Source: Arthrobacter cavernae (GTDB taxonomy: Bacteria; Actinomycetota; Actinomycetes; Actinomycetales; Micrococcaceae). Taken from it: a DNA stretch of 64,000 nt. The notes below the pieces were generated by a model. That model was not told the origin of the DNA. It was given only the letters and a program-made list of their open reading frames with translations, and did not search any database. The stretch lies in NCBI RefSeq assembly GCF_017368795.1, contig NZ_JAFNLL010000009.1:62001-126000 (forward strand), read 5' to 3'. The position numbers and the translations under genes are program-made. Shown piece by piece: positions 1,026-35,596 of the stretch. Each line of letters starts with the position of its first letter. Positions within the stretch are counted from its first letter, which is position 1.

Positions 1026-1117
1026 TCAGCTTTAGGGGCGGCTCGTTCCACGCGGACCGGGCCGCCTTCTTGGAAAAACAACTACATCAGGAATCAACCG
1101 CATCGCGCATTCGCGGT

Positions 1118-1170
1118 CCTCGGTAGTGATCCCCGGGAGCAGCCTTCGGTGACGAAGGCACGGCCCGAGG
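1118..1170 (+). ncRNA. Structured leader element upstream of pnp
   Basis: In the rpsO-pnp gap a perfect 7-bp stem GCCTTCG/CGAAGGC with a GTGA (GNRA-type) loop lies at 1142-1159. It is nested in an outer pairing CCTCGG (1118-1123) with CCGAGG (1165-1170). In several bacteria, including Streptomyces, the pnp leader folds into a hairpin that is cut by RNase III and used for autoregulation. This element has the right position, but its role here is inferred. Confidence 0.4.
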
Positions 1171-1267
1171 GTCTCGATCGATGACCGGGTGTCGTACAGG
1201 CCAACAAAAGACGTGGCCTGGGTTGATGCGGCGGACTTCCGTCACACAGAAACGGAGGTGACTCTCA

Positions 1268-24872: not shown

Positions 24873-26782
24873 GTGTACGCCCAGCATGGGCATTTGCTTG
24901 GAGGTGTGAGTCCTCTGGAGGAGAAGGTGGTTTAACTTCTAGCTGAAGGCAACTGCGTCATCGTGAGGTGGGGTGGGAAGGAAGCCGGAGGCAAATCCCT
25001 GCACCGAGGGACACGAACCGCATAGAAGGCATGCTGGTTGGGGTGAGCCAGCACGCGATGGTGAAGCCCGTTCCACCGAAACGGCCAGTGTGTAAATGCG
25101 GCGGCGGCAGGGGGAAAGCAAATGTTCTTATCTGGGGAGGTCTGTCCCAGTGCGTCATCCGGGTTGCCGGGTGGAGCGGTGCGGCTCTAAGGGCCGTAGC
25201 TGATGGGGCAGAAGTCAGCCGAGGCCGTAGTACCGGCGGGAATCAGGATGGTTCGCCGGGAAGGGCTGAACGCTGGGAATTGATGGTTTGAAGCGGTGCT
25301 TCTCGTGTGTTCCACAAGAATCGCAGCCAACCCACGGGAGTGGTGGGACAGAAAGTGTAAGGAGCGAACGGTGAATCCGGGATGGCCCCTTTCTGTGCGT
25401 AGTGAGGACCCGGCGGGTATCGGGGAGAACATCAGGGATGGTCAGGAACTCTGGGAGGAAGTCTTTTCCAAGCGGAATCTGATGATCGCGTTGAACCGTG
25501 TTGAGCGTAACCGGGGTGCTGCCGGTGCTGACGGGCTGCGCACGGAGGAACTCCGTGCGTGGTGCTTAGGACATTGGACAGAAACCCGGGAAACGTTGGA
25601 CGCGGGTACGTATGTGCCGTTGCCGGTTCGTCAGGTGATGATTCCCAAACCTGACGGCGGGGAACGGAAGCTGGGAGTACCGTCCGTGCTGGACCGGTTG
25701 ATCCAGCAGGCAGTCGCGCAAGTCCTGTCCCCGGTCTTTGATCCGGGGTTCGTGCCGGTCTCGTATGGGTTCCGGCCGGGCAAGAGCGCCCACGATGCGG
25801 TGAAAGTCGCCCGAACGGTGATTTCACAGGGGTATCGGTGGGTGGTCGAGGTTGACCTGGATGCGTTCTTTGACCGGGTGAACCACGACGTGCTCATGGC
25901 CAGGGTGGCGCGGAAAGTGAAAGACAAGCGGCTCCTGAAGCTGATTCGACGCTATCTTGAAGCGGGAATCATGGCTGATGGGATGCGGCAGCCGACGGAG
26001 GAGGGAACCCCGCAGGGGTCGCCTTTGTCGCCGTTGCTGAGCAACATCATGCTGGACGATTTTGATCAGGAATTCTGGGCTCGCGGACACCGTTTCGTGC
26101 GGTATGCCGATGACATCAGGGTCTTTGTGAAGTCCAAGAGGGCCGCGCAGCGGGTGTTGGATCAGGCCACGAAAGTGCTTGAGAAGGACCTGAAATTGAG
26201 GGTAAACCGGGAGAAATCCGCGATCAATCCGGGAACTGTAGCTACGTTGCTGGGTTTCGGGTTCTACTTCACCAAAGCCGGGGTCAAGATCAAGATCGCT
26301 CCGAAGGCGTTCAAGCGCATGAAGGACCGCATCAGAGACCTGACCTCGCGGAGGTGGAGCGTCTCCATGGAGTACCGCATCCAACAACTGAACCGCTATG
26401 TCCGGGGATGGATGGGCTACTTCCGGCTGTCACAGACACCGAAGAAGTTCGCCGCCCTTGATGAATGGTTCAGGCGCAGGATGCGCCAAATCCGGTGGAA
26501 GGAATGGAAGAACCCTCGGACGCGGGTGGCAAAACTGCGCAAGCTCGGGATCAGGCCGGATCTGGCCTACCAATGGGGCAATAGCAGCCGAGCCTACTGG
26601 CGCACCGCAGGATCACCAATCCTTCAACGCGCACTGCCCAATCAACACTGGGCAGAGCAAGGCCTCATTCTCTTTCGCGCTGCATGGGATCGTCTTCAAC
26701 GACCCAGCGAACCGCCGTATGCGAGGCCCGCACGTACGGTGGTGTGAGAGGAGGGCCGGGAAACCCGGCCCTCCTACTCGAT
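24873..26782 (+). mobile_element. Group IIC intron (bacterial class C), about 1.9 kb
   Basis: A self-splicing retroelement with an intact reverse transcriptase ORF. The 5' end is placed at GTGTACGCCC, which opens a domain I-like fold with a GCCCAGCATGGGC hairpin. Domain V is visible at 26711-26743 (CGCCGTATGCG and CGCACGTACGG halves). Domain VI at 26750-26774 is a perfect 11-bp stem with an AAA loop, followed by TACTCGAT, placing the 3' end at 26782. Exact boundaries were inferred from class C patterns. Insertion behind a terminator and the absence of an endonuclease domain agree with class C. Confidence 0.85.
25371..26747 (+). CDS. ltrA: Group II intron reverse transcriptase/maturase
   Basis: 458-residue intron-encoded protein. 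Reverse transcriptase motifs are seen in order: PKPDGGERKLGVPSVLDR, the VEVDLDAFFDRVNHD block, GTPQGSPLSPLLSN and the catalytic YADD (near residue 243), followed by the X/maturase domain (RWKEWKNPRTRVAKLRKLG). No endonuclease domain follows, as expected for class C. GTG at 25371 with AAGGAG upstream is chosen over a longer frame from 25296. The last residues are encoded inside domain V. No frameshift is seen, so it may be active. Confidence 0.93.
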   Translation: MNPGWPLSVRSEDPAGIGENIRDGQELWEEVFSKRNLMIALNRVERNRGAAGADGLRTEELRAWCLGHWTETRETLDAGTYVPLPVRQVMIPKPDGGERKLGVPSVLDRLIQQAVAQVLSPVFDPGFVPVSYGFRPGKSAHDAVKVARTVISQGYRWVVEVDLDAFFDRVNHDVLMARVARKVKDKRLLKLIRRYLEAGIMADGMRQPTEEGTPQGSPLSPLLSNIMLDDFDQEFWARGHRFVRYADDIRVFVKSKRAAQRVLDQATKVLEKDLKLRVNREKSAINPGTVATLLGFGFYFTKAGVKIKIAPKAFKRMKDRIRDLTSRRWSVSMEYRIQQLNRYVRGWMGYFRLSQTPKKFAALDEWFRRRMRQIRWKEWKNPRTRVAKLRKLGIRPDLAYQWGNSSRAYWRTAGSPILQRALPNQHWAEQGLILFRAAWDRLQRPSEPPYARPARTVV

Positions 26783-32043: not shown

Positions 32044-33012
32044 ATGGATGAAACTCTTGCAGTTCCCGCCCCGCAGCCCCCGGCTGACGGTTCCGCCACG
32101 TCCGCTTCAACGCTCAGCGGGCTGGCGTTCTCCAAGGGCCATGGAACGGGCAATGATTTTGTCCTGATCGCCGATCCCGAGGATTCCCACCTGATTTCCC
32201 CGGAGCAGGTAGCGCAGCTGTGCGACCGGCACCTGGGCATCGGCGGCGACGGCCTCATCCGTGCCGTACCGTCCCGCTTCCTGCCTGAGGGCCGCGATCT
32301 CCTTGCCGCCGACCCCGCCGCCGAATGGTTCATGGACTACCGCAACGGCGACGGCTCGCTCTCGGAAATGTGCGGCAACGGCGTGCGCGTCTTCGTCCAC
32401 TTCCTGATAGCCCAAGGACTCGTCCAGCTGGGCGCCGGCGAAAGCCTCACCATCGGCACGCGCGGCGGCATCAAGAAGATCGTCCGCACGGACGGCGGCT
32501 ACGCCGTGGACATGGGCCCTTGGGAATTCATCTTCCCGGAGGAGGCCACCAGCAAGGCCATGGACGCGCTCGTTAGTGCCGAAGGCCTCGAAGTCGCCCG
32601 TCCCGGGCTCTCCGTCAGCATGGGCAACCCGCACACCGTGGTGGCCCTGGCCGAGCTCAGCGAACTCGCAGCAACCCAGCTGTTCAAGGCTCCCGTCGTG
32701 GATCCGAAACCCGTGAACGGCACCAACGTCGAGTTCGTGGTTCCGGCCGAACCCCTGGTGCACGACGGCGTCGGCACCATCACCATGCGCGTCCACGAAC
32801 GCGGGGTGGGCGAGACCCAGTCCTGCGGCACTGGCGCCTGCGCCGCCGCCGTCGCGATCCGGCACTGGGCCGGGGCCGGCGCTCCGGACGCCTGGCAGGT
32901 AAACGTTCCGGGCGGCGTCGTCGGCGTGACGTTCTTCCCAGGCGACAGCGGCCGCGAGCATGTGGAGCTCAGCGGTCCCGCCGTCATCGTCGCTAGTGGG
33001 ACGCTTTCCTGA
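32044..33012 (+). CDS. dapF: Diaminopimelate epimerase
   Basis: 322-residue cofactor-independent epimerase that makes meso-diaminopimelate. Both catalytic cysteines are visible: MCGNGVRV near residue 112 and TQSCGTGACAAAV near residue 262. The N-terminus carries about 30 extra residues before the FSKGHGTGNDFV motif. It overlaps the convergent methyltransferase gene by 20 bases. Confidence 0.97.
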   Translation: MDETLAVPAPQPPADGSATSASTLSGLAFSKGHGTGNDFVLIADPEDSHLISPEQVAQLCDRHLGIGGDGLIRAVPSRFLPEGRDLLAADPAAEWFMDYRNGDGSLSEMCGNGVRVFVHFLIAQGLVQLGAGESLTIGTRGGIKKIVRTDGGYAVDMGPWEFIFPEEATSKAMDALVSAEGLEVARPGLSVSMGNPHTVVALAELSELAATQLFKAPVVDPKPVNGTNVEFVVPAEPLVHDGVGTITMRVHERGVGETQSCGTGACAAAVAIRHWAGAGAPDAWQVNVPGGVVGVTFFPGDSGREHVELSGPAVIVASGTLS

Positions 33013-33607
33013 CCCGCAGAATCCTGAAGGATTTGGACGTGCTTTCACGGGACACCGTGAAAGTGCTGTCCAGCTGCTCGCCAAGCCAGCGCTGCAGCGA
33101 GTCCGAGCCGAGGTTCTTCTGGACCACCAGCCAGGCGTTGCCGCCCGGCGCCAGGCGCGGAAGCCATTTGAGCAGCACCGAGTGCAGTTCGTCCTTGCCG
33201 ATGCGGATGGGCGGGTTGGACCATATGGTGTCGAACATCAGTGAAGGGTCGACGTCGTCGGGCAGGCTCGCGGTGACATTCCTCAGTTTCAGTGCGGCAG
33301 CGTTCTCGTTCGTCAGCGTGATGCAGCGCTCATTGACGTCGACGGCGTAGACGCTTGCGTGCGGGGCCATGAGGCCCATGGTCAACGCGATCGGTCCCCA
33401 CCCGCAGCCGATGTCCAGCAGATTTCCCTGCGGGGAGGGCGCCGGAACCTCGGCCAGAAGCACCGTGGTGCCCTTGTCCACGCCGTCCGGGCTGAAGATG
33501 CCGGAGGAGGTCTGCAGCCGCCGCTGGGCGCCGGCGAGTTCCACCGTGAGGGGCTTGCGGGTGAACGGTCCGGCCGGCTGGGCGCTGAAATAGTGTGCAG
33601 ACTCCAT
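32993..33607 (-). CDS. RsmC-like class I SAM methyltransferase
   Basis: 204 residues, with FSPDGVDKGTTVLL, the SAM loop LLDIGCGWGPIAL, and the target-base motif NPPIRIGK, the signature of N2-guanine methyltransferases such as RsmC. It corresponds to the single-domain form of the family. The ATG at 33607 is preferred because the family starts at HYFSAQPAGPFTRK and a -10-like TAATCT lies 8 bases upstream. It is divergent from the hflX leader. Confidence 0.9.
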   Translation of the reverse strand: MESAHYFSAQPAGPFTRKPLTVELAGAQRRLQTSSGIFSPDGVDKGTTVLLAEVPAPSPQGNLLDIGCGWGPIALTMGLMAPHASVYAVDVNERCITLTNENAAALKLRNVTASLPDDVDPSLMFDTIWSNPPIRIGKDELHSVLLKWLPRLAPGGNAWLVVQKNLGSDSLQRWLGEQLDSTFTVSRESTSKSFRILRVRKASH

Positions 33608-33615
33608 AATTTGCC

Positions 33616-33621
33616 AGATTA
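33616..33621 (-). promoter_or_regulatory. -10 element (TAATCT) of the methyltransferase gene
   Basis: TAATCT on the minus strand ends 8 bases before the ATG at 33607, giving a leaderless or near-leaderless message. Confidence 0.45.
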
Positions 33622-33647
33622 GTTGCCCGCGGGCGGCTTGGGAAACT

Positions 33648-33663
33648 GCCCGCCCCGGCGGGC
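33648..33663. repeat. GC palindrome between divergent promoters
   Basis: GCCCGCCCCGGCGGGC is a perfect 16-bp palindrome between the -10 of the methyltransferase gene and the TAGGGT of the hflX side. It may be an operator or an RNA hairpin; no family is recognised. Confidence 0.45.
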
Positions 33664-33679
33664 GGTTGACACACGCTGC

Positions 33680-33685
33680 TAGGGT
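33680..33685 (+). promoter_or_regulatory. -10 element (TAGGGT) of the hflX leader
   Basis: TAGGGT is followed by 7 bases and an ATG at 33693. The TTGACA at 33666-33671 is only 8 bases away, so it is not a normal -35 partner for this -10. Confidence 0.5.
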
Positions 33686-33692
33686 TGAAGAC

Positions 33693-33713
33693 ATGTTCTT
33701 GATCTTCGAGTAG
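33693..33713 (+). CDS. Possible leaderless hexapeptide ORF (MFLIFE) in the hflX leader
   Basis: An ATG placed 7 bases after TAGGGT opens a six-codon frame (MFLIFE, then TAG). It would be translated as soon as the transcript starts, 230 bases before hflX. Short ORFs in the leaders of ribosome-rescue and antibiotic-response genes often control read-through by stalled ribosomes. That role is inferred from position only; nothing in the hexapeptide itself is diagnostic. Confidence 0.4.
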   Translation: MFLIFE

Positions 33714-33943
33714 CCGGCACCGCCCGCGACGCACGCCAGCGCACCAGCGCTGCGCCATTCCGCGCGGCAGGTCCCACCGGTGCAGACTGTCCGCCATCCA
33801 TACGATGGCGCCTGCAGTTGACCGGGCACTCAGAACATCAATCCTCCCGCCACCAGGCCGCAGCCTCGGACCGGCGGTTTTCCCTGCAGCAAAGTCCACG
33901 GCCCAGACGCCGCAGCTGCCACGAGCCCACCTTGGAGGCCCGG
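33714..33943 (+). ncRNA. Structured 5' leader of hflX
   Basis: About 230 bases without a gene. A stem CGCCATC/GATGGCG (33792-33798 with 33804-33810) is flanked by complementary TGCAG and CTGCA, which would extend it. Further on, CCGCC and GGCGG enclose an inner GGC-CGCA-GCC hairpin and are followed by TTTT (about 33848-33881), a weak terminator-like element. Together with the upstream short ORF this has the layout of an attenuator. Confidence 0.4.
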
Positions 33944-35596
33944 ATGACCCAAGACCGTCAGCCCAGCGCGAATACCGCACCGCTGGACGCCAAAGAGCAC
34001 TATTCTGGATATGCCGAACACCATAAGGAGACCATGACCACCCAGCAGCACTCCGGATCCGAATCCGACGCCCAGAACATGGGGCCTGAAGAAATCCAGG
34101 CTGTCATCGACCGGATTTTGTCCAAGGAAGCCCCCTCCGCGGCTCCAGCAGACCAGGACGCCAGGGGAGTGTTCGGCAAGGCCCAGGCGATCTCCACCCT
34201 CGACCACGAGCACAGCGTCTACGACGGCGAGCAGGAAGATCTTGCCGAGCGCCGCGCCCTGCGCCGCACGGCCGGTCTGTCCACGGAACTCGAGGACGTC
34301 ACCGAGGTCGAATACCGGCAGCTGCGCCTCGAGCGCGTGGTGCTGGCCGGGCTCTGGACCGAGGGCACCCTGGCGGACGCCGAGAACTCCCTGCGGGAAC
34401 TGGCCGCACTGGCCGAAACCGCAGGTTCGGAAGTGCTGGACGGGATCGTCCAGCGCCGCATGAAGCCGGACCCCGGCACATTCCTGGGGTCGGGCAAGGC
34501 GCAGGAACTCAAGGACATCGTGTCGTCCACCGGCGCGGATACCGTGGTGGTGGACACCGAGCTTTCCCCGTCCCAGCGCCGTGGCCTTGAAGACATCGTC
34601 AAGGTCAAGGTGGTGGACCGTACCACACTGATCCTGGACATTTTCGCGCAGCACGCCAAGAGCCGCGAGGGCAAGGCCCAGGTGGAACTGGCCCAGCTGG
34701 AATACCTGCTTCCACGGCTCCGCGGCTGGGGCGAGTCGATGTCCCGCCAGGCCGGTGGCCAGGTGGGCGGGGCGGGCGCCGGCATGGGTTCGCGTGGCCC
34801 GGGTGAAACCAAGATCGAACTGGACCGCCGCCGCATCCGCACCCGGATGGCCAAGCTGCGCCGCGAGATCGCCGCGATGAAGCCGGCCCGCGAGACCAAG
34901 CGGGCCAACCGGCGTCGTAATTTCGTCCCCTCGGTGGCGATTGCCGGCTACACCAACGCCGGCAAGTCCTCATTGCTCAACCGCTTGACTGACGCGGGTG
35001 TGTTGGTGGAGAACGCGCTGTTCGCCACACTGGACCCCACGGTGCGCAAGGCCCAGACGCCCGACGGGATCGGCTACACGCTCGCCGATACGGTCGGCTT
35101 CGTCCGCTCGCTGCCCACCCAGCTCGTGGAGGCTTTCCGCTCCACCCTGGAGGAAGTGGCGGACGCCGATCTGATCTTGCACGTGGTGGATGCCTCGCAC
35201 CCGGATCCGGAAGGCCAGATCGCCGCCGTACGGCACGTATTCAGCGAGGTGGATGCCCGCAAGATCCCGGAGATCATCGTCCTCAACAAGGTGGACGTGG
35301 CGGATCCGTTCGTCGTGGAGAGACTGAGGCAGAGGGAACCCCGGCACGCAGTGGTGTCCACCCGCACGGGCCAGGGTATTGCCGAGCTCCTGCAGCTCAT
35401 CAGTCAGGCCATTCCGCGGCCCGGTGTCCGTATGGAAGTCCTCATTCCGTACCACCGCGGGGACCTGATCAACAAGCTCCACAACTCCGACGCCGAGATC
35501 CTCAGCTTGGAGCACGAGGAACACGGCACGCGTGTGCTGGCAATGGTCCGCGAGGGCCTCGCCGCCGAACTGGAGTCGTTCGTCAGCAATGGTTGA
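33944..35596 (+). CDS. hflX: GTPase HflX
   Basis: 550-residue ribosome-associated GTPase that splits stalled or hibernating 70S ribosomes. The N-terminal HflX domain (LASGKAQEL-like MKPDPGTFLGSGKAQELKD, VELAQLEYLLPRL, GAGMGSRGPGETKIE) is followed by a G domain with GYTNAGKSSLLN, DTVGF and NKVD. ATG 33944 has GGAGG 5 bases upstream; ATG 34034 also has AAGGAG (3-base gap) and would give 520 residues. It overlaps the helicase gene by 8 bases. Confidence 0.95.
   Translation: MTQDRQPSANTAPLDAKEHYSGYAEHHKETMTTQQHSGSESDAQNMGPEEIQAVIDRILSKEAPSAAPADQDARGVFGKAQAISTLDHEHSVYDGEQEDLAERRALRRTAGLSTELEDVTEVEYRQLRLERVVLAGLWTEGTLADAENSLRELAALAETAGSEVLDGIVQRRMKPDPGTFLGSGKAQELKDIVSSTGADTVVVDTELSPSQRRGLEDIVKVKVVDRTTLILDIFAQHAKSREGKAQVELAQLEYLLPRLRGWGESMSRQAGGQVGGAGAGMGSRGPGETKIELDRRRIRTRMAKLRREIAAMKPARETKRANRRRNFVPSVAIAGYTNAGKSSLLNRLTDAGVLVENALFATLDPTVRKAQTPDGIGYTLADTVGFVRSLPTQLVEAFRSTLEEVADADLILHVVDASHPDPEGQIAAVRHVFSEVDARKIPEIIVLNKVDVADPFVVERLRQREPRHAVVSTRTGQGIAELLQLISQAIPRPGVRMEVLIPYHRGDLINKLHNSDAEILSLEHEEHGTRVLAMVREGLAAELESFVSNG

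Follow-up and report, generated by a model that had tools for sequence, protein, structure and literature searches.

In mycobacteria, leaderless polycysteine short open reading frames (sORFs) reportedly act as cysteine-responsive attenuators. In Listeria, the hflXr gene has a drug-responsive leader with an upstream ORF (uORF), the rli80 attenuator (PMC6310831), and a uORF motif with an RLR sequence, uORFC-6-1, has been proposed for Bacillales hflX (PMC8632094). Both resemble the locus described here in placing a uORF together with RNA structure ahead of an hflX gene, and differ from it in their RLR peptide (14 residues in Listeria), in the Listeria terminator hairpin and in belonging to Firmicutes (PMC6310831, PMC8632094). 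For the streptococcal msrD leader peptide, MsrDL (MYLIFM), termination by release factors is prevented at the stop codon; the L3A and I4A substitutions abolish the erythromycin response, Y2 is not essential, M6 matters, and a UAG stop lowers induction (PMC10314930). In actinobacteria, the whiB7/wblC antibiotic-response leaders also carry a uORF but control a regulator gene rather than hflX (PMC12121999), and macrolides and lincosamides raise hflX itself in mycobacteria, where it confers resistance (PMC12493154). The mycobacterial polycysteine attenuators (Canestrari 2020) share with our locus a leaderless short ORF used as an attenuator in Actinobacteria; in contrast to their poly-Cys peptides, 0 of the 111 genus peptides described below contain Cys. 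A literature search over titles, abstract openings and text passages found no report of the hflX leader described here.

The window, a stretch of 64,000 nucleotides from Arthrobacter cavernae (GTDB genus g1), encodes hflX at positions 33944 to 35596 of the forward strand, with its start ATG at 33944. The gene is single-copy in the 4.07-Mb genome, where two further matches were weak and partial. It is preceded by a GGAGG Shine-Dalgarno sequence (33934 to 33938, +), the strong ribosome-binding site mentioned in a preliminary description of this DNA. A divergent gene (32993 to 33608, -), named by eye as a class I SAM methyltransferase with its start codon placed at 33606 to 33608, bounds the intergenic region of about 335 bases. 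Named relatives (L121 to L136; Arthrobacter, Paenarthrobacter and Pseudarthrobacter) encode HflX proteins 83 to 91% identical to that of the window. A contig titled Vibrio cholerae 35D (L141, WNZI01000016.1) also carries an hflX gene, whose product is 78% identical to that of the window, and that record is probably mislabelled or contaminated.

In the intergenic region, TAGGGT (33680 to 33685) is followed by seven bases and the ATG at 33693 of the frame ATG TTC TTG ATC TTC GAG TAG (MFLIFE; 33693 to 33713, +; stop TAG at 33711 to 33713), exactly as first described. TAGGGT belongs to an extended -10 element, TGC-TAGGGT (33677 to 33685, +). Across both strands of the 64 kb, no ATG mini-ORF of 4 to 8 residues other than MFLIFE follows TANNNT-N6/7, and the pattern TANNNT-N7-ATG, with T second in codons 3 to 5 and a stop after codon 6, matches the 4.07-Mb genome once on both strands, at this site. 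The MFLIFE mini-ORF is far beyond chance. Because the -10 element lies only 6 to 7 bases before the ATG throughout the genus, a leaderless-type geometry, a ribosome-binding site would not fit; where some relatives have GGAGG-like bases, these lie 2 bases before the mini-ORF ATG, too close for usual ribosome binding. Transcription would start at the ATG of MFLIFE or one base earlier, and the mini-ORF would be translated leaderless. A scan for a sigma-70 -35 box of this promoter found none; TTGACA lies just 8 bases from TAGGGT, which puts its TTGAC too near the -10 to be the -35. In many Paenarthrobacter-type relatives GGGAAAC stands about 20 bases before GTTTGACA/GTTGACA (33640 to 33675 in the window). 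Thiol-stress sigma factor promoters consist of GGAA, about 19 bases and GTT, and the GGGAAAC...GTTGACA arrangement at 33640 to 33675 recalls such a promoter. The divergent methyltransferase gene looks nearly leaderless too (33606 to 33630, -; TAATCT, 8 bases, ATG), and GCCAGATTAGT or a near-copy recurs in many relatives.

We compared 111 genus members, comprising the window, 100 genus relatives and 10 further members among the matches listed, which together sample a larger genus. TGN-TANNNT followed by an ATG mini-ORF was present upstream of hflX in all 111, the element occupying the same place as TGC-TAGGGT. The spacing from TANNNT to ATG was 7 in 110 loci and 6 in one, the preceding base was C in every case, and the mini-ORF had six codons in 110 genomes and four in one. 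Fourteen kinds of peptide were found: MFLIFE (81 loci), MFLNFK and MILNFK (6 each), MILISK (4), MFLNSK (3), MFLVFE and MILIFK (2 each), and MILNFQ, MFLI, MFMIFE, MFIILV, MFLNFR, MILIFQ and MFLTFK (1 each). Leucine occupied position 3 in 109 of 111, encoded by TTG or CTG. L3-I4-F5 was found in 84 peptides, the window's included; 17 of the 27 without it differed through N4. Mini-ORF stops were TAG in 86 loci, TAA in 24 and TGA in one; of 47 long frames counted roughly across the window, 23 ended in TGA. The distance from mini-ORF to hflX ranged from about 170 to 420 bases, with the mini-ORF kept throughout. A sample of 297 genomes across the order yielded the MFLIFE pattern in six of them: 6 of the 8 genus members included, and no genome from outside the genus. 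The comparison supports both the mini-ORF and its promoter geometry as features of the genus, and to that extent the earlier proposal of a possible leaderless hexapeptide ORF.

Folding places the mini-ORF in a long-range helix, P1, a pairing of 33699-33717 with 33822-33841 that the preliminary description had not named. Its 5' arm (UUGAU, UUC, GAGU, CCGG; 33699 to 33717, +) consists of the mini-ORF interior and bases just past the stop, and its 3' arm (CCGG, ACUC, GAA, AUCAA) spans 33822 to 33841 (+); both arms emerged from folds, duplex prediction and covariance analysis with a genus model. In the window, UUC, GAGU and CCGG were paired in P1 in every fold of two fold predictions, while UUGAU was so paired in one minimum-energy fold and mostly in both centroids and was paired elsewhere in the other minimum-energy fold; a second register pairs AUGUUCU with AGAACAU. 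In the genus, the mini-ORF arm pairs with a segment roughly 100 to 170 bases downstream. The consensus fold of 24 Pseudarthrobacter-type leaders was identical to the centroid, with UUCGAGU of the mini-ORF pairing with distal ACUCGAA, and CCGGC after the stop pairing with GCCGG; this fold encloses the hairpins P2, P3 and P4. The P3 hairpin, GCGAYGCAGG...CCUUCCGC, hardly varies across alignments A1 and A2; it has an unpaired internal loop and is a possible binding site. Its window version was assigned by eye from the alignments to 33724 to 33768 (+). The variable P4 region contains the local 7-bp hairpin reported earlier (33792 to 33810, +), in which 33792-33798 pairs with 33804-33810 around a 5-nt loop about 79 bases past the stop codon.

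The case for P1 rests on comparison. The P1 duplex of the window alone was no better than shuffles (14 of 60 were as good), the folding z of its leader was -1.93, and the P1 arm paired with the mini-ORF at a probability >0.5 in 71 of 122 leaders, a set that includes 16 named loci which partly duplicate other genomes in it. A covariance model, R1, built from 33 leaders with the window excluded, matched the window at 33693 to 33846 (+; 34.5 bits, E 4.9e-5), a structured leader domain that was the only match in the genome among the 150 candidates scored out of 4691 at first look. For alignment A3 (96 rows), 100 chosen sources were searched and 95 gave a leader at E up to 0.1, L004, L007, L035, L048 and L101 being those without; one false row, L116, from the other strand, is counted in the pair-change and codon 6 statistics and was dropped from the tree test. 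Over the 96 rows, 28 of 40 R1 pairs changed on both sides (18.8 shuffled), 267 cells were changed on both sides (71 shuffled), and 88.0% of cells were paired (79.8% shuffled and at most 51.3% slid), figures to be read as those of an alignment fitted to the structure. In the P1 subset, 7 of 16 pairs changed on both sides. The first base of codon 6 and its distal partner varied together (G-C/U in 75 of 75 rows, A-U in 19 of 20 and C-G in 1 of 1, over 96 rows of which one is false), and a shift from E to K in the peptide therefore comes with an altered distal arm; when mapped onto a tree of neighbouring sequence, codon 6 changed about 4 times and the partner 7 times, too few for a test of independent change. 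The preliminary description had named the absence of a conserved mini-ORF or of stem pairs among close relatives as grounds for abandoning its proposal. The comparison was run and did not refute the proposal, mini-ORF and covarying stems both being conserved in the genus. No cis-regulatory family reached the Rfam gathering score in 33560 to 33960, and a known Rfam element was set aside after a permissive search gave one snoRNA-family match (E 0.74), far below the gathering score; the leader is a covarying RNA with no Rfam match at that score.

We propose ribosome-mediated attenuation of hflX by this leader, the likeliest trigger being a macrolide-type drug that blocks release at the MFLIFE stop codon, and we put the probability of this reading at about 0.5. 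When no ribosome is present, codons 3 to the stop and the adjoining CCGG would pair with the segment about 130 bases on, the branched domain would be closed and hflX would be low. A ribosome held on the mini-ORF, with an assumed cover of about 36 bases, would prevent P1 and leave the distal arm free or re-paired. Because the mini-ORF itself is an arm of P1, a ribosome on it must open the helix; the stalling idea of the preliminary description is supported to this extent, in that a ribosome there alters the predicted leader fold. With P1 open, hflX would be expressed. A macrolide-type drug in the exit tunnel may stop release at the MFLIFE stop codon, as on MsrDL, and HflX would then split the drug-stalled ribosomes.

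The comparison with MsrDL gives likenesses and differences. Both peptides have six residues and have M1, L3, I4, F5 and the stop position in common, and in both cases the target gene product frees drug-hit ribosomes (PMC10314930). Judged by its sequence, the window's MFLIFE has all the MsrDL-type marks (L3, I4, F5 and a stop after codon 6) and does not share M6. In the msrD system the controlled gene encodes an ABC-F protein, the leader ORF has a ribosome-binding site and ends in UAA, and there is an intrinsic terminator (PMC10314930), whereas here the mini-ORF is of leaderless type, UAG is the commonest stop (86/111), terminators are not above chance, the gene is hflX, and E6 and N4/K6 variants occur. 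The lack of M6, the prevalence of UAG and the 27 of 111 genus peptides without L3-I4-F5 count against the drug reading. Since the MsrDL resemblance was noticed after the fact, we treat the drug reading as the leading inference and not as a result. It fits what is described of hflX biology in mycobacteria, Listeria and Bacillales. The likeness to Listeria raised in the preliminary description holds for the mechanism but not for the leader peptide, as the RLR motif occurs in 0 of 111 genus peptides. Three WhiB matches were found in the genome; because two are unlike WhiB7 by eye and the third is weak, a direct cis sensor would make sense. If the drug-responsive reading is true, antibiotic-responsive leader peptides would extend, in leaderless form, to the core gene for ribosome splitting in a large family of soil Actinobacteria. 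MFLIFE would be an arrest-peptide candidate close to MsrDL, with >30 natural peptide variants for probing how the exit tunnel reads a peptide.

Beyond the genus, we searched 68 family loci of other genera, selected from the matches listed, with 12 loci (L049 to L060) taken separately. A mini-ORF of 4 to 8 residues behind TANNNT-N6/7 was found in 32 of the 68, with 19 different peptides, where 200 dinucleotide shuffles averaged 0.46 and never exceeded 3; 17 of the 68 had mini-ORFs at least 75% hydrophobic (shuffle mean, 0.01). The peptides included MTFL/MTYL/MTLIFL in g22 (6/6 loci), MTLFFV/MTLIFV/MTFVFV in g23 (5/5), MLIFL/MFLFI in g26 (4/5), MLSFL in g19 (3/3), MRLFK in g7 (5/6), MKNK, MNFV, MFTL and MYIL in g28, and MKNL in g24 (1/7). 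Genus g8 had M(A/T/W)NK, and among L049 to L060 a 4-residue mini-ORF was found in 7 of 12 (MANK, MTNK, MWNK or MFTS). Since g8 has M(A/T/W)NK and others have MKNK or MKNL, the family mini-ORFs are not all hydrophobic, and hydrophobic peptides are a tendency in the sequences compared, not a rule. No mini-ORF was found in g31 (0/6), in g32 (0/5), or in g3, g5, g13, g17, g25, g27 and g30 (1 to 3 loci each). Among named loci, it was present in 16 of 16 of L121 to L136, in 8 of 31 of L137 to L167 under a wider 12-residue rule, and in 0 of 33 more distant ones (L168 to L200). By these counts the hflX mini-ORF is a family-level but patchy feature. Erythromycin-resistance pentapeptides, of which MRLFV is one example, are selected laboratory peptides and not leaders. 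MRLFK of g7 recalls MRLFV, for which a literature search gave no match; in these pentapeptides, L or I at position 3 is critical (PMC10314930).

The variety of peptides bears on what the leader senses. Classical amino-acid attenuation, with the mini-ORF responding to a shortage of charged Phe, Leu or Ile tRNA, would explain why F, L and I make up most MFLIFE codons; we regard it as very improbable, given codons that differ among genera (Arg, Lys, Thr, Ser, Tyr) and the fact that hflX is no biosynthetic gene. Undissociated 70S ribosomes, the particles HflX splits, can initiate leaderless messages. Because of this, the mini-ORF of the same attenuator could gauge the general state of ribosomes instead of a drug: abundant idle or stalled 70S particles would occupy it, open P1 and raise hflX, which would make the leader part of a feedback loop. 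The near-invariant leaderless geometry of the genus (spacing 7 in 110/111) agrees with such a sensor, and so do the varied peptides (14 in the genus and 19 at the 32 outside loci, some of them non-hydrophobic), as a drug sensor should be stricter. However, a sensor of occupancy alone would work with any peptide, and given L3 in 109 of the 111 peptides and their resemblance to MsrDL we find this account unlikely, if worth keeping in view. Equally tentative, and in our judgement doubtful, is the idea that leaderless initiation itself is the sensor of free or drug-jammed 70S particles and doses the splitting factor HflX. Were it true, much of a bacterial family would have a leader that ties HflX dose back to ribosome state in a closed loop.

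P1 was weak or undetected outside the genus. When each leader's own duplex was compared with duplexes formed by leaders swapped between genera, the genus mean z was -1.65 and 43 of 111 leaders beat all swaps; the mean z was -1.41 in g23, -0.95 in g24 (one locus), -0.61 in g22, -0.47 in g26, -0.30 in g28, -0.09 in g19 and in g20, and +0.33 in g7. The longest perfect complementary runs, own against swapped, were 8.2/5.0 in g22, 7.3/5.0 in g19, 6.3/4.7 in g26, 6.6/5.3 in g1, 6.6/5.4 in g23, 6.3/5.3 in g20, 6.0/5.4 in g7 and 4.5/4.6 in g28. P1 went undetected in g7 and g28 by the leader-swap test, and we did not extend it beyond the genus, since these z-scores and runs leave it weak or undetected in the other genera. 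The pattern is relevant to a reading in which the nucleotides are kept for RNA structure alone and the mini-ORF is untranslated. P1 does span codons 3 to 7 and covary, and locus L022 retains the P1 duplex despite a frame cut to MFLI. Yet 110 of 111 loci preserve ATG, frame, length and in-frame stop, and other genera, whose nucleotides are unrelated, nonetheless have short ORFs equally far from TANNNT, g7 and g28 with no detected P1 among them, which makes a structure-only reading decidedly unlikely.

In the translated attenuator that we favor, how an open P1 would raise hflX is the part most loosely drawn. The preliminary description had pointed to a terminator-like CCGCC/GGCGG pairing followed by TTTT (33847 to 33881, +). 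The sequence is there (33847-33851, 33873-33877 and TTTT at 33878-33881), but its role as a terminator found no support: a hairpin plus TTTT of this kind occurs in 11 of 122 leaders, the window among them, against 10.8 expected from shuffles, on which count we rejected it. A consensus terminator scan of the window's leader found none, the CCGCC/GGCGG hairpin was not seen in aligned close relatives, and the element looks accidental. Blocking the mini-ORF changed mean access to the Shine-Dalgarno sequence of hflX from 0.279 to 0.322 over 119 leaders (Wilcoxon p 0.0016), with shifts of >0.2 upward in 17 and downward in 5 of the 119; in the window, access fell from 0.31 to 0.09. Sequestration of the Shine-Dalgarno sequence is on this evidence a possible alternative output that we did not adopt. 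Past P1, the leader contains 41.5% C and 25.9% G (118 of 122 leaders), a composition that stands without a matched leader control; the leaders left out of these sets of 119 and 118 had an unclear Shine-Dalgarno sequence or <50 bases remaining. Such a C-rich, G-poor stretch is suggestive, and only that, of Rho-dependent termination, and our guess is that the output step would be Rho-dependent termination there.

In clade A (23 sequences, L047 omitted), the consensus re-paired as GCCGGA:UCCGGC once its first 36 bases were blocked. Over the 122 leaders, the distal arm of P1 in the blocked state paired downstream at 0.38, upstream at 0.14 and with the last 30 bases at 0.04, and was free at 0.44. 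Because U-rich stretches follow the clade-A hairpin, the opposite direction of response is conceivable, in which a stalled ribosome lowers hflX as the freed distal arm and the UCCGGC-U-rich segment form a terminator. We consider this quite improbable: the hairpin has only six pairs around a loop of >40 bases, hairpins with TTTT are at chance level (11/122 against 10.8), and the one Firmicute hflX leader of described response considered here is drug-induced (PMC6310831). The consensus of the Paenarthrobacter clade, to which the window belongs, had no such clear switch when blocked.

Elsewhere in the window, Rfam matches to group II intron pieces (24957 to 26782, +) surround an ORF at 25296 to 26747 that by eye resembles a reverse transcriptase/maturase. 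This region is flanked by a small helix-turn-helix-like ORF on one side and a MarR-like ORF on the other. An Actino-pnp RNA at 1112 to 1189 (+) reached the Rfam gathering score.
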